From Bradyrhizobium elkanii USDA 76 (GTDB lineage Bacteria; Pseudomonadota; Alphaproteobacteria; Rhizobiales; Xanthobacteraceae), in the NCBI RefSeq assembly GCF_023278185.1, contig NZ_CP066356.1, forward strand, positions 930,001 to 994,000: a DNA stretch of 64,000 bases, read 5' to 3'. How positions within the stretch are numbered: position 1 is the first letter of the stretch; each line of letters begins with the position of its first letter. Below the pieces are notes generated by a model that saw only the letters and a program-made list of their open reading frames with translations, was not told where the DNA came from and made no database searches. This document shows, piece by piece, positions 47,179 through 55,515 of this stretch. The position numbers and the translations under genes were made by a program.

Positions 47179-47805
47179 CTAAAGGCGGGCAGTGCCGTGA
47201 TCAAATATCCGAGAAGTCTCGAGATTCATGCCGCCATCAATCTGCGCCTGGGACGAAGCGTCAAATCGCTGTTTGGCGGGCCTGTCGAGTCGCCTTGAAG
47301 CTGAGCTGCACGACTTGACCTGAACTGGCCGGTTCGCGTCGATAGGGAGGACCGTCTTGTGGGAAATCCGCTTCAAGGCCAAGTTCGAGCGAATACTCGA
47401 AACGCCGGTTATTCGCGAGAGCTTGTTTACGATGAGGTCTTCAAGAGCATCGATGTCGGACACCATAACGCGGAGAAGATAGTCGCTATCCCCGGTCATC
47501 AGGTAGCATTCCATCACTTCGCTAAGGCGATCAATTGAGCGCGTAAAGCTTTCGAGTGATGGCTGGGCCTGCCTTTCAAGCTTTACTTGTATGAATGCTG
47601 TAACGCCGATGCCGAGAACTGCGGGATCCAGCACCGCAATTCGCCGGTCAATGACCCCGAGTTTTTCGAGTGTTCGAACTCGGGCGAGACACGGGGACGG
47701 TGAGAGATTGACGCGGGAAGCCAGTTCAACGTTGGTCAAACTTGCGTTCTGCTGCAGTTCATTCAAGATCTTTATGTCGATCCTGTCCAAAGCCGTCGTC
47801 GTCAT
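47179..47805 (-). CDS. Lrp/AsnC-family regulator with long C-terminus
   Basis: The protein begins MTTTALDRIDIKILNELQQN with HTH LTNVELASRVNLSPSPCLAR and an RAM effector domain (VTAFIQVKLERQAQPSLESF, VMECYLMTGDSDYLLRVMV). The typical end of the family is around NLALKRISHKTVLPID, near residue 155. Here 50 further residues without similarity follow, so the original stop may have been lost. Lrp-type proteins respond to amino acids and usually act on a nearby gene. The upstream neighbour is the broken pccR locus; the HD gene converges from the other side. Confidence 0.85.
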   Translation of the reverse strand: MTTTALDRIDIKILNELQQNASLTNVELASRVNLSPSPCLARVRTLEKLGVIDRRIAVLDPAVLGIGVTAFIQVKLERQAQPSLESFTRSIDRLSEVMECYLMTGDSDYLLRVMVSDIDALEDLIVNKLSRITGVSSIRSNLALKRISHKTVLPIDANRPVQVKSCSSASRRLDRPAKQRFDASSQAQIDGGMNLETSRIFDHGTARL

Positions 47806-48119: not shown

Positions 48120-48344
48120 CTAGCCGGGTAATTGGTAGGGCAGTATGTCCCTGCGATCGCGGTCTATTCTCAATCTGCTCTTGAGCGGCGGGATCGCGCG
48201 TTGAGGACAGTTGGTCCGCTCGCAGATTCGACAAGAAATTCCGATCGGATCGAAAGTGCCTTTGCTTGTGAGGTCGAGCCCGTCTGCATATACGAAATCT
48301 TTTGCATAGGAGACTTCGCATCCCAGCGCGATGGCATAGCGCGG
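48120..48344 (-). pseudogene. pccR: C-terminal part of PccR/ScfR-type regulator, cut off by IS21-family element
   Basis: On the minus strand this piece reads RYAIALGCEVSYAKDFVYAD, then GLDLTSKGTFDPIGISCRIC and ERTNCPQRAIPP, ending at TAG 48122-48120. This is the signature C-terminus (with its conserved Cys cluster) of the ScfR/PccR family of short-chain fatty acyl regulators. It is in exact frame with the N-terminal part at 50648-51834 once the IS and one copy of the CGCGG target duplication are removed. No start codon is available for separate expression. Confidence 0.9.
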
Positions 48345-48421
48345 TGTCGCGCGCCATGGAAAACTGCCCCCTCGGCGCCACGAGGAATTGCCCCCTCCTT
48401 GGATAGCCGAGGAGAGAGCGA

Positions 48422-49729
48422 ATGAACGAGGAACGAATCACGGAAGGCTCGTCGTGGATTGATCCACGGGGGCAGGTGATGAAGACGCCGGATGACGTGG
48501 CGGAGATGTTGCGCCTGAGGGCGTGTGGGTGGGGTCTGAAGCGGATTGCGCGGCAGCTGGGGTGCAGCCATCACACGGTGAGGGACTACGTGGCGGCGGG
48601 CGGGGTGAAGCCGTTCAAGTCGCTTGAGCGGGCGAAACGACTCCATGGCCTCGAGGGTTGGCTGCGCGAGAGGTTCATTCGGCATCGCGGCAATGCGGAT
48701 GTAGTGCGCCAGGACCTGTTGGCCGAGCAAGGCGTGGCAGTCAGCCGGCGGACGCTGCAACGCGCCGTGCAGCCCTATCGCCAGGCGCTGAAGGCGGAGG
48801 CGCTGGCGACGACGCGGTTCGAGACGCCGCCCGGCCGACAGCTGCAGATCGACTTCGGGGAGCGTCTGGTCGAGATCGGCGGGGTGAAGATCAAAGCATT
48901 CGTGTTCGTGGCGACGCTTGGGCATTCGCGGCGGCTGCATGTGCGTGCGTTCCGGGCCGAGAAGCAAGAGCACTGGTTCGCCGGGCTCGAGAGCGCATTT
49001 ACGACCTTCGGCGGCGTGCCGGAGGAAGTGCTGATGGACAATCCACGCGCGCTCGTGGTGCGCCACGACGCGGTGAGCCGGTCGGTTCAGTTTAACGACA
49101 AGCTCATCGCGTTCGCGAAGCATTGGGGCTTCCGTCCTCGCGCCTGCGCACCGTATCGGGCGCGCACGAAGGGCAAGACGGAGAATGGCGTCGGCTACGT
49201 GAAGAAGAACGCGATCGCGGGGCATTCCTTCGCGAGCTGGGACGCATTCGAGGCGCATCTCGCCGAGTGGGAGCGTGAGGTGGCGAACGTGCGTATCCAC
49301 GGCACGACCGGCGAGGCGCCGATCGCTCGCTTTGCGCGTGACGAGGCACACCGGTTGAAGCCGCTCGGCGGGCAGCCGTCGTTCGGATCGTTGCGCGAAC
49401 TGGCCCGTGTCGTCGGCAACGATTGCGCCGTCGAGATCGACACGAACAGCTACTCGGTGCCGTGGCGGCTGATCGGCGAGCGCGTGGCGGTGACAGTTGC
49501 GGCGGGCGAGGTGCGCATCCGCCATGGCATGCGCGAGGTTGCGGTCCACAAGCAATCGGAGGGTCGCCGGCTGCGGATCGTCGATTCCGCCCACCTCGAC
49601 GGGGTTGCCGGTCGCGATGGCGCGGTCTGCCGACCGGCAAACGAACCGACAGTGCCGGGGTCGTCTCCACTGCCCTCGTTGTTGCGTCCTCTTGCCGAAT
49701 ACGAAGCAGCGATCGGAGGGAGCTTCTGA
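48422..49729 (+). CDS. istA: IS21-family transposase IstA
   Basis: The 435-residue protein has an N-terminal HTH (GLKRIARQLGCSHHTVRDYV) and an integrase core with the DDE residues in QIDFGERLVE, EVLMDNPRAL and RTKGKTENGVGYVKK. It joins IstB to cut and transfer the element ends. The stop overlaps the istB start (ATGA), typical of this family. The sequence has no frameshift. Confidence 0.95.
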   Translation: MNEERITEGSSWIDPRGQVMKTPDDVAEMLRLRACGWGLKRIARQLGCSHHTVRDYVAAGGVKPFKSLERAKRLHGLEGWLRERFIRHRGNADVVRQDLLAEQGVAVSRRTLQRAVQPYRQALKAEALATTRFETPPGRQLQIDFGERLVEIGGVKIKAFVFVATLGHSRRLHVRAFRAEKQEHWFAGLESAFTTFGGVPEEVLMDNPRALVVRHDAVSRSVQFNDKLIAFAKHWGFRPRACAPYRARTKGKTENGVGYVKKNAIAGHSFASWDAFEAHLAEWEREVANVRIHGTTGEAPIARFARDEAHRLKPLGGQPSFGSLRELARVVGNDCAVEIDTNSYSVPWRLIGERVAVTVAAGEVRIRHGMREVAVHKQSEGRRLRIVDSAHLDGVAGRDGAVCRPANEPTVPGSSPLPSLLRPLAEYEAAIGGSF

Positions 49730-50586
49730 TGGCGCGCACAAAGAAGGCTACCGAAGCACCAATCGATCGGCTCGAGGCCATGCTGGCGCGATTGCAGCTC
49801 TCCGGCATCCGCGACCAGCTCGACAACCTGCTCGACGAGGCGGCGCGCGCGAACCTGTCGGCGCGTGAGACGCTGATCCTGCTGTGCGAGCGCGAGATCG
49901 CGCGCAAGGATCATCGCCGCATCGAGATGGGGCTGAAACTCGCACACTTCCCGACCGTGAAGGAGCTTGCGGGCTTCGACTTCGAGGCGCAGCCATCGAT
50001 CGATCCGAAGCAGATCCGCGACCTGGCCGCGTCACGTTGGATCGCCAACGGCGAGAACGTGCTGCTGCTCGGCCCGCCGGGCGTCGGTAAGACGCACTTA
50101 TCGATCGCGCTCGGGCGAGAGGCGATCCTGGCCGGTTACACGGTGCAGTTCACCACGGCGACGACCCTGGTCGCTGGCCTGGCCAAGGCGCATGGCGAGC
50201 GACGCCTGGACGAGAAACTGCTCGCGCTGGCGAAGCCAAAGCTGCTGATCATCGATGAACTGGGCTACCTGCCGCTGGAGCCCGACGCGGCGCATCTGTT
50301 CTTCCAGTTGGTCAGCCGCCGCTACGAAACCGGCGCCATGCTGATCACGTCGAACCGCAGCGTTGCCGAATGGGGCACCGTGTTCGCCGATCCGGTGGTC
50401 GCCACTGCGATCCTCGACCGGCTCTTGCACCACAGCCACGTGCTGACCATCCGCGGCGACAGCTACCGGCTCCGCGCCAAGCGAAAGAGCGGCCTCATCA
50501 AGCCGCCCGCCGCTGACGGCCCTCCGGTCGGCTCCGCCTCCCTCCGTCCCGTCAGCGGCGGAGCCAACCCTGAACCGACATCATGA
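49729..50586 (+). CDS. istB: IS21-family helper ATPase IstB
   Basis: The 285-residue AAA+ ATPase starts at ATG 49729, overlapping the istA stop. Walker A is GPPGVGKTHLSIAL and Walker B is LLIIDELGYLPLE, followed by the sensor region ITSNRSVAEW. It helps target selection and activates IstA. The last residues (PPVGSASLRPVSGGANPEPT) extend beyond the usual end into the terminal region of the IS. Confidence 0.95.
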   Translation: MARTKKATEAPIDRLEAMLARLQLSGIRDQLDNLLDEAARANLSARETLILLCEREIARKDHRRIEMGLKLAHFPTVKELAGFDFEAQPSIDPKQIRDLAASRWIANGENVLLLGPPGVGKTHLSIALGREAILAGYTVQFTTATTLVAGLAKAHGERRLDEKLLALAKPKLLIIDELGYLPLEPDAAHLFFQLVSRRYETGAMLITSNRSVAEWGTVFADPVVATAILDRLLHHSHVLTIRGDSYRLRAKRKSGLIKPPAADGPPVGSASLRPVSGGANPEPTS

Positions 50587-50647
50587 ACCCGAGGGTGGGG
50601 GCAGTTCTTCATGACGCAAAGGGGGCAGTTCCGGATGGCGTTTGACA

Positions 50648-51834
50648 CGCGGACGAGGAGAGCCGAAGCCGCCCCGGCCTTTCGAAAGTTCGGTTGCGAT
50701 GCAAAGAAATCGAATGCCGTCCGGTGTCTCGGCGAGTTGCCGAATGATTTGGCTTGGGGCCTCGAATGCCTGGTGTGCATTCCAGAGCGGGCAGGCGGCT
50801 CCGTAGCGTGCGAATTGCAGTTTTGCCGCGCTGTGGCGTTTGGTGATGTTCCCGGCGCGGTCCAGTCGGGCGAAGAAAACGGGAACGCCCTTCGAGCCTT
50901 GCCGTTGAAGCGTCGACAGGCGATGAGCAACCTGCTCCAGGCTTGCGCCGAACCTGGTGGCGAGCAATTCGAGATCGTGCCGCAGCTCTCGAGCGGATTG
51001 CAGGAATCGTTGGTACGGTAGAACGAGGGCGCCCGCAAAATAGTTTCGCAATCCGGCGGCGCACACGTTTCGGGCATCGACTGATCGAAATGTCGCTTTA
51101 TCTGCAATCTGACCAATCCGTTCTTCTTGTTCAAGAGCCGCGATTTGCAGGGCAATCTGGAAGGTCCGGGTTGGTGTCGGCAGATATTGGCTCAGAAAAA
51201 GCGTGCGCGATGCGCGATCGAATTGCCGCAATGAAGTCTCGTTCGGACCGCTCTGGCGAATCCGTACGCCATGTTTCGCTTCCAGGTAGCTGATCAGCGC
51301 GGTCGTCGCGTTGCTGTCGGGAATATTCAGCCGGTCGGCAAGAGCCTCGGCCGCGGTATCCAACTCATCGACGTAATTGTCGACCAGGTGAAAGAAATCG
51401 CGAACTTCCTCATAAGCCGTCGGTTCTCCCGCCAGGTTGGCGATCTGGCCATCCAGACTGGCGAGCTGCTCGCTGTTGCGCCGATATGCCTGATGCGCGT
51501 TCAGGAGCGCTTGAGCAAAACCGGGAGCGTTCTGAACCACCAGCTTCAACTCTTGTGTGCTGGGCGTGTAGGAAGCGAAGATCGGATCAGCCAACGACTC
51601 GGCCAGCATCGAAATGACTTTGTCGTTGTCGTTGAGCGACAAAGAGCTCAGGTCGACCTGAAATTTTTCGGCGAGCAGCACCAGTACGGAGGCTGAGACC
51701 GGCCGCTGATTGTTCTCGATCTGGTTCAGGTAACTGAGCGAGATTCCCAGCCGCTCCGCGAATGCCGCCTGGGTGAGCCTTGTGCTCTCCCTCACCTCGC
51801 GGAACCTGCGACCGATATAAAGCTTTCCTGCCAT
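50648..51834 (-). pseudogene. pccR: N-terminal part of PccR/ScfR-type XRE regulator, interrupted by IS21-family element
   Basis: ATG 51834 (or TTG 51840) starts [20 protein letters not shown] with the XRE helix-turn-helix LTQAAFAERLGISLSYLNQI. The long effector domain of the short-chain fatty acyl regulator family follows. The frame enters the IS at 50647 after SPRPR; the piece outside the IS is 1187 bases from the ATG. With the fragment at 48120-48344 the intact gene would encode 468-470 residues, the normal length. It is divergent from pccB with 130 bases between starts. A truncated protein with its DNA-binding half and an IS-encoded tail could still be made. Confidence 0.93.
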
Positions 51835-51848
51835 TTGCAACTTCGCAA
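51834..51848. promoter_or_regulatory. PccR-type operator candidate, site 1
   Basis: TTTGCAA-C-TTCGCAA overlaps the start codon of the regulator. It repeats 22 bases later as TTTGCAG-A-TTTGTAA. Tandem TTTGCAA half-sites are what I recall for PccR-type regulators; in this window the rule is supported only by position and the two copies. Confidence 0.5.
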
Positions 51849-51855
51849 TTTACTG

Positions 51856-51870
51856 TTTGCAGATTTGTAA
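51856..51870. promoter_or_regulatory. PccR-type operator candidate, site 2
   Basis: TTTGCAG-A-TTTGTAA, two helical turns from site 1 and between the divergent regulator and pccB starts. A further TGTGCAAATG follows at about 51874. Confidence 0.5.
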
Positions 51871-51964: not shown

Positions 51965-53497
51965 GTGATTTCCACAATTGAAGCTCTTGAAGAACGTCGC
52001 GTCGGTGCAAGGCTTGGCGGCGGCGAAAAGCGCATCGAGGCGCAGCACGCGCGCGGCAAGCTGACCGCCCGCGAGCGGATCGAACTGTTGCTGGACAAGG
52101 GCTCGTTCGAGGAATTCGACATGTTCGTCGAGCACCGCTCGATCGAGTTCGGCATGGAGAAGACCAGGATCCCCGGCGATGGCGTCGTCACCGGCTGGGG
52201 CACGGTCAACGGCCGCAAGACGTTTGTCTTCGCCAAGGACTTCACGGTGTTCGGCGGCTCGCTCTCCGAAACCCACGCGCTGAAGATCACGAAACTTCAG
52301 GACATGGCGATGAAGGCGAGGGCGCCGATCATCGGCCTCTATGACGCCGGCGGCGCGCGCATTCAGGAGGGCGTCGCGGCGCTCGCGGGCTATTCCTACG
52401 TGTTCCGCCGCAACGTGCAGGCTTCGGGCGTGATCCCGCAGATCTCGGTGATCATGGGCCCCTGTGCCGGCGGCGACGTCTATTCGCCCGCCATGACCGA
52501 TTTCATCTTCATGGTGAAGAACACCAGCTACATGTTCGTCACCGGCCCCGACGTGGTGAAGACCGTCACCAATGAGGTGGTGACCGCCGAGGAGCTCGGC
52601 GGCGCTTCGGTGCACGCCACGCGCTCCTCGATCGCCGACGGCGCGTTCGAGAACGATGTCGACGCGCTGCTGCAGATGCGCCGTCTGATCGACTTCCTGC
52701 CCTCGAACAATACCGACGGCGTGCCGGAATGGCCGAGCTTCGACGATATCGGCCGGGTCGATATGTCCCTCGACACGCTGATCCCCGACAATCCGAACAA
52801 GCCCTACGACATGAAGGAGCTGATCCTGAAGGTCGTCGACGAGGGCGACTTCTTCGAGATCTCGGAGACTTTCGCCAGGAACATCGTCACCGGCTTCGGC
52901 CGCATCGCCGGCCGCACCGTGGGCTTCGTCGCCAACCAGCCGATGGTGCTGGCCGGCGTGCTCGACTCCGACGCCTCACGCAAGGCCGCGCGCTTTGTCC
53001 GCTTCTGCGATGCCTTCAACATCCCGATCGTCACCTTCGTCGACGTGCCGGGCTTCCTGCCGGGCACCGCGCAGGAATATGGCGGCCTGATCAAGCACGG
53101 CGCCAAGCTCTTGTTCGCCTATTCGCAATGCACGGTGCCGCTCGTCACCATCATCACCCGCAAGGCCTATGGCGGCGCCTTCGACGTCATGGCGTCGAAA
53201 GAGATCGGCGCCGACATGAACTACGCCTGGCCGACCGCGCAGATCGCCGTGATGGGTGCCAAGGGCGCGGTGGAGATCATCTTCCGCTCCGACATCGGCG
53301 ACCCCGACAAGATCGCCGCGCGCACCAAGGAATACGAAGACCGCTTTCTGTCGCCCTTCATCGCCGCCGAGCGCGGCTATATCGACGATGTCATCATGCC
53401 ACATTCGACGAGGCGCCGGATCGCGCGGGCGCTGGCGATGCTCAGGGACAAGAAGGTCGAGATCCCCGTGAAGAAACACGACAATCTGCCTCTGTGA
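51965..53497 (+). CDS. pccB: Propionyl-CoA carboxylase beta (carboxyltransferase) subunit
   Basis: GTG 51965 is chosen since the family starts just before [20 protein letters not shown]. The open frame upstream to 51857 covers the control region. The 510-residue protein has two crotonase-like halves ([40 protein letters not shown], and in the second half [20 protein letters not shown] and [20 protein letters not shown]). It transfers carboxyl from biotin to propionyl-CoA, giving methylmalonyl-CoA. pccA follows after two bases. The controlling regulator gene upstream is disrupted by an IS. Confidence 0.96.
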
Positions 53498-53499
53498 CC

Positions 53500-55515
<2,016 letters not shown>

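Follow-up and report, generated by a model that had tools for sequence, protein, structure and literature searches.

An IS21-family insertion in pccR probably disconnects one of two propionyl-CoA carboxylase gene sets from its regulator in Bradyrhizobium elkanii USDA 76

PccR, PrpR and an interrupted regulator gene

Two described regulators stand closest to pccR, the gene of Bradyrhizobium elkanii USDA 76 that is the subject of this article. In Rhodobacter sphaeroides, PccR acts as an activator, and a pccR deletion impaired growth of R. capsulatus on propionate; sites for regulators of the ScfR family commonly consist of two nearly identical boxes (excerpts of PMC10370305). In Mycobacterium tuberculosis, PrpR (MtPrpR) holds a [4Fe4S] cluster by means of Cys363 together with a C-X2-C-X4-C motif, the C363A or C450A substitution abolished induction by propionate, and a construct of residues 155-440, which lacks the motif region, was a monomer with no coenzyme A (CoA) bound (excerpts of PMC6765138). 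In the window analysed here, a stretch of 64,000 nucleotides (assembly GCF_023278185.1, contig NZ_CP066356.1, positions 930,001 to 994,000, forward strand), pccR is split by an insertion sequence (IS) of the IS21 family, and this insertion most likely disconnects one of two sets of propionyl-CoA carboxylase (pcc) genes from its regulator.

The insertion and the empty site

The inserted element has the marks of a complete IS21-family member, as a first, sequence-only reading of the window had proposed, noting its length and the CGCGG flanking both sides (Table 1). Its termini read TGTC...GACA; 48344-48398 and 50594-50648 form a 55-nt inverted repeat that is imperfect (75% complementary), and internal repeats with 24-bp spacing are found near each end. 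The istA and istB frames are open and stand in the tandem order of the family, with the istB start codon sharing one base with the istA stop. Target duplications of IS21 elements measure 4-8 bp, and the 5-bp duplication falls inside that range. The element appears intact by its open frames and ends and may be able to transpose. Eighteen matches to it occur in the USDA 76 genome, only this one being full-length, and 36 plasmid records match, 7 of them with at least 80% cover.

When the element and one copy of the duplication (2308 nt) are taken out of 48120-51834, a single frame of 1407 nt remains, that is, 468 codons plus a stop rather than the 470 codons counted earlier. It encodes a helix-turn-helix (HTH) domain, an IrrE-like domain (Peptidase_M78) and the ScfRs domain in one chain, the composition of the PccR type within the ScfR family. 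The N part carries the first two domains and positions 1-89 of the 157-position ScfRs domain, which is cut at position 89, and the C part covers positions 89-157 and so belongs to the same family; membership of another family was a result that the sequence-only reading had named as speaking against it. As it now stands, the 5' frame runs on into the element and stops at 50581, giving 417 residues from the ATG at 51834. The gene is divergent from pccB, and alignment shows the same order in relatives.

Related genomes retain the gene in one piece. Twelve relative loci (11 Bradyrhizobium and 1 Tardiphaga) were read out of 80 fetched, and all twelve show the empty site in an uninterrupted pccR whose frame is open over 465-472 codons from the match start. 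Over the 80 nt of the junction, four of these loci have no mismatch, two have 2 and six have 7-20. The same IS at this site was found in none of the twelve. The protein P0011, which comes from a near-identical genome (9,223,690-bp contig), matches the window PccR at every residue from 97 until the C part ends and crosses the insertion site without a break. Because it does so, the insertion is probably young, in line with the earlier proposal of a recent event. Moreover, the ratio of nonsynonymous to synonymous substitution rates (dN/dS) is 0.09-0.17 when the N part is compared with its six nearest relatives, much as for the whole gene among five of those relatives (0.07-0.16), and there is thus no sign of long decay.

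P0011 was called from an internal start, residue 96, which may reflect either a fourth lesion or just a gene-calling choice. In another species, P0023 (B. embrapense, contig 8,280,367) shows a PccR frame shifted mid-gene and a late start; unlike it, the draft of B. embrapense SEMIA 6208 has an open pccR. The P0023 lesion may be a sequencing error or a pseudogene.

What the insertion removes from PccR

The solved homologue MtPrpR aligns to residues 85-465 of the intact PccR of B. tropiciagri with an E value of 1.9e-80, and this alignment places the break within the predicted architecture. The junction, R394/P395, falls directly after the position of the CoA-gating loop of MtPrpR (residues 402-408). 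The equivalent of Cys363 lies in the N part and the C-X2-C-X4-C motif in the C part, so that all the predicted iron-sulfur ligands are still encoded while the element separates them, three of the four being cut off from the N part. Binding of acyl-CoA and activation of pccB by the uninterrupted PccR of this species are themselves predicted by homology.

Two pcc gene sets and operator-like boxes

Beyond the pccBA operon next to pccR, the genome carries a lone pccB (C1:4,211,411-4,212,976) and a lone pccA (C1:4,278,564-4,280,576), whose starts lie 67 kb apart and whose proteins are each 96% identical to the operon copies. Between pccR and the operon stand three ScfR-like boxes (Table 1), the first of which overlaps the pccR start codon by one base; like boxes occur within 120 nt upstream of pccR in all 14 relative loci tested. 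No such box was found ahead of the lone genes, where the scan covered 250 nt before pccB and 260 nt before pccA. Because the lone genes lack these operator-like boxes, the insertion would deprive only one of the two sets of its regulator. The sequence-only reading had proposed that pccBA in this strain is uninducible, constitutive or driven from a new promoter; on the present evidence a loss of control probably holds for the PccR-linked operon, and its extension to propionyl-CoA carboxylase in the whole strain is not supported.

ScfRs domains were found at four places in the genome, none close to the lone pccB or pccA. The possibility of a second PccR was rejected, as the proteins of the two other ScfR genes share only 41% and 39% identity with the N part. 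An isocitrate lyase gene lies divergent from one of these two genes, a context that makes the latter RamB-like.

Table 1. Features of the pccR-pccBA locus of B. elkanii USDA 76, in window coordinates
Feature	Position	Strand	Evidence
pccR 3' part, 74 codons + stop; ScfRs end with C-X2-C-X4-C motif	48120..48344	-	Pfam ScfRs 89-157 of 157, E 1.8e-25; equals end of P0011
IS21-family insertion sequence, 2303 bp	48345..50647	+	terminal repeats, istA/istB, 5-bp duplication, empty site in relatives
istA, DDE transposase, 435 aa	48422..49729	+	Pfam rve + Mu-transpos_C_2
istB, helper ATPase, 285 aa	49729..50586	+	Pfam IstB_IS21, E 4.2e-84
Target duplication CGCGG, 5 bp	48340-48344 and 50648-50652		flanks both IS ends
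pccR 5' part, 394 codons; HTH, IrrE-like, first half of ScfRs	50653..51834	-	Pfam; comparison with P0011
ScfR-like boxes TTTGCAA (51834-51840), TTCGCAA (51842-51848), TTTGCAG (51856-51862)	51834..51862		pattern also in relatives
pccB of PccR-linked operon, 510 aa, presumed GTG start	51965..53497	+	Pfam Carboxyl_trans; frame check
Likely gene-conversion tract in pccB, agrees with lone copy	52712..52954	+	66 consecutive agreeing polymorphic columns; 0/10,000 shuffles
pccA of PccR-linked operon, 671 aa	53500..55515	+	frame check
Likely gene-conversion tract in pccA, agrees with lone copy	53505..53853	+	96 consecutive agreeing polymorphic columns; 0/10,000 shuffles

Probable further insertion alleles of pccR

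The first 100 residues of PccR, used as a query, returned 16 proteins, two of which are identical to PccR up to a point and foreign beyond it. P0121 (130 residues; present on 4 contigs, the longest 9,548,186 bp) is identical over residues 1-105 and ends in a 25-residue tail; among plasmids of Bradyrhizobium, 38 records match this tail, 29 of them at 99% or more, and IS1631 copies code for it at their extreme end. P0124 (92 residues; 9,513,165-bp contig, named B. elkanii) is identical over residues 1-69, and its 23 foreign residues match 13 records, 3 of them at 99% or more, in which they adjoin a transposase of the ISBj12 family, the end of that element not being fixed. Among N-terminal fragments of 110-350 residues, no further near-identical allele was found (22 proteins, best 65% identity). 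Together with the element in the window, the IS1631 and ISBj12-type tails suggest three separate insertions in pccR.

Consequences of the insertion

The explanation that best fits these observations, to which we assign a probability of about 0.76, is that an IS21 jump in B. elkanii inactivated pccR, whose product regulates an accessory pccBA operon, and that the lone pcc genes provide tolerance. The remnant of 394 residues (417 with the IS-coded tail) would keep the HTH domain and lose the end of the acyl-CoA domain along with three iron-sulfur ligands, and it would be expected neither to bind acyl-CoA nor to form a tetramer. If PccR here is an activator as in Rhodobacter, the pccBA operon should cease to rise with propionyl-CoA; from the sequence we thus infer that PccR function is lost and that the operon has ceased to respond to propionyl-CoA. 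A carboxylase would still be encoded by the lone genes, which have no ScfR-like boxes upstream, and because they are present elsewhere in the genome the cell could tolerate the loss of pccR. Two further insertions in pccR, suggested by the database fragments, would suit a gene that B. elkanii can do without, or that is disfavoured there.

Several points weigh against this explanation. TTTGCAA is a motif that we take to be the ScfR site, and the boxes are accordingly putative operators. The P0121 and P0124 alleles are read from protein fragments, and pccBA beside them may not be intact; intact alleles in other B. elkanii strains may lie hidden in a protein database clustered at 90%. The genome of P0011 could bear a different lesion upstream, and P0023 suggests a broken pccR in the assembly of another species, so that loss may not be special to B. 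elkanii.

Other accounts of the locus deserve consideration. The istAB genes share their strand with pccBA, pccR standing in antisense in the gap, and read-through from istAB across pccR could in principle drive pccBA constitutively; the ISBj12-type transposase of the P0124 allele would also point to pccB. No terminator-like site was found on the istAB strand from 50300 to the end of the IS. Such rewiring nevertheless seems improbable: a 13-bp perfect inverted repeat lies near the istB end (50507-50519/50549-50561), three terminator-like patterns follow on the istAB strand inside pccR (51254-51271, 51648-51661 and 51691-51704; the two strands together gave 5 such patterns in the scan, where shuffles averaged 2.0), a search for promoters of the sigma-70 type found none, and pccB begins 1.3 kb beyond the IS end. 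In P0121, moreover, the IS1631 tail puts istA the opposite way, away from pccB; the alleles thus share the loss of pccR and not an orientation, which favours plain loss over promoter capture. It is no likelier that the truncated PccR remains active as a CoA-blind binder, blocking the operon or fixing its level, a role as blocker that the sequence-only reading had also envisaged. While the 417-residue frame does hold complete HTH and IrrE-like domains, and its N part has a dN/dS close to that among intact relatives, the latter says nothing of the remnant's activity if the insertion is recent. The comparable C-terminal truncation of MtPrpR (a construct also without its HTH) had a closed CoA pocket (excerpts of PMC6765138), and the other alleles break pccR after codons 69 and 105, leaving little beyond the HTH. 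Support for a blocker is thus not found.

An assembly artefact or a mixture of strains, which the IS-free P0011 of a near-identical genome might bring to mind, is very hard to reconcile with the exact 5-bp duplication, the two intact IS ends and an assembly of two contigs with 100% completeness and 1.57% contamination. A bolder version of inactivation by the IS21 jump, in which B. elkanii is repeatedly losing PccR, is a tentative and rather doubtful proposal: at least three different elements would have entered the gene in different strains, while the operon is open here and would be exchanging sequence with the lone genes, which could mean that loss is favoured, perhaps in the nodule or in the laboratory.

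Probable exchange between operon and lone copies

In USDA 76, the two pccA copies show no difference over their first 300 and last ~210 bases, and windows in the middle fall to 86%; each operon gene also contains a long run of agreement with its lone counterpart (Table 1). In trees built from operon and lone rows (8 and 8 for pccB, 6 and 7 for pccA), a single clade of operon copies was rejected by the approximately unbiased test (p 1.4e-4 and 1.1e-5, respectively). In genome G192, whose operon has the same surroundings as the window operon, operon and lone pccA are 99.6% identical to each other, and the operon pccA is 93.9% identical to the window operon pccA. Across 15 genomes, operon and lone pccA agree at 98% or more in 3 (G192, G093 and G046) and at less than 90% in 4 (G143, G036, G007 and G016). 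Run tests gave p >0.05 for pccB in 3 of 8 genomes (G016, G007 and G143), with G192 borderline at 0.046, and for pccA in 4 of 7 (G192, G093, G143 and G016); in G192 and G093 nearly all pccA columns of the run test agree. These patterns fit gene conversion between the operon and lone copies of both genes in part of the genomes; in USDA 76 the exchange would be patchy.

Two side observations concern the same genes. In G093 (locus L135), the two pccA copies share 99.0% identity, and the one in the operon lacks the 671-codon frame, the longest stretches beside pccB being 465 and 443 codons, which suggests a frameshift. In several relatives (L026-L030, L033, L034 and L037), draft contigs stop within pccB or pccA or close to them, which would be expected if short-read assembly breaks at near-identical operon and lone copies.

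Distribution in the genus

A search of 195 genomes of the genus returned a PccR match at E <=1e-120 in 20: the interrupted gene of USDA 76, a full-length PccR of at least 72% identity in 12 others, and a distant ScfR (45-48%) in 7. Some of the 12 genomes are also named loci of the 80-locus set, and the two counts are thus not independent. At least 23 of the 195 genomes list two or more PccA matches, 6 with PccR and 17 without a PccR match; this number is a lower bound, as G093 has two copies and one listed match and fragmented drafts are missed. The second pccBA was fetched from 11 of the 17 PccR-less genomes (all but G035, G054, G092, G100, G180 and G186). It is contiguous in all 11, and no PccR-type match at E 1e-8 was found beside it, the stretch from G036 (L188) being uninformative on this point since it stops inside pccB. 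In G004 (L176) and G046 (L181), another ScfR gene, with 41% identity to PccR, is located no more than a few kb from the second pccBA, and the pccBA operon thus seems to occur with other regulators.

A literature search for PccR with Bradyrhizobium gave a sole match, on Ralstonia by its title; B. elkanii with methylmalonyl-CoA gave nothing, and titles on gene conversion among Bradyrhizobium paralogs included none on pcc.

Genome context

The genome comprises 9.5 Mb in two contigs. Over 18 kb, the smaller contig matches plasmid pS05J of B. elkanii S05J-Be at 100% identity, the plasmid lengths differing (402,731 and 374,082 bp). Downstream of pccR, the nearest relatives cease to resemble the window at 47204-47207, within the final part of a gene for an AsnC/Lrp-type regulator (47179-47805), whose protein extends about 60 residues beyond its domain match.

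Significance and comparison with known systems

An IS knock-out alone is ordinary; three insertions in one regulator together with gene conversion are worth following. USDA 76 provides a natural strain for testing the role of PccR beside a second carboxylase set without the same boxes. If several insertions within one species hold true, selection for regulatory loss becomes testable in a soybean symbiont, and if PccR is indeed lost repeatedly, the spare pcc genes would make that loss possible. The probable conversion between operon and lone copies is also a reason for caution where phylogenies of Bradyrhizobium rely on pccB or pccA, since these markers can mislead.

The locus resembles several described systems and departs from each. 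With PccR of Rhodobacter (Cereibacter) sphaeroides it shares membership of the ScfR family and control of pccB, at least as presented in the excerpted reports (PMC10370305, PMC12632250), and here pccR is divergent from pccBA; compared by description, it differs in being interrupted by an IS and in having a second pccB and pccA elsewhere in the genome. M. tuberculosis PrpR (PDB 6CYY, 6CYJ, 6CZ6 and 6D2S) shares the C-X2-C-X4-C motif but is intact and regulates the methylcitrate cycle (excerpts of PMC6765138). Plasmids of Bradyrhizobium sp. CB82, ISRA436 and ISRA435 carry elements that match the inserted one over its whole length at 96.4-96.7% identity, whereas no copy stands at the pccR site in the 12 relative loci read. 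Finally, the likeness of pcc copies within a genome recalls the concerted evolution of duplicated bacterial genes such as rRNA operons, in which copies within a genome are likewise more alike than copies between species (PMC6002687); here, a metabolic operon is paired with two lone genes that lie apart, and the process would operate in some genomes only.

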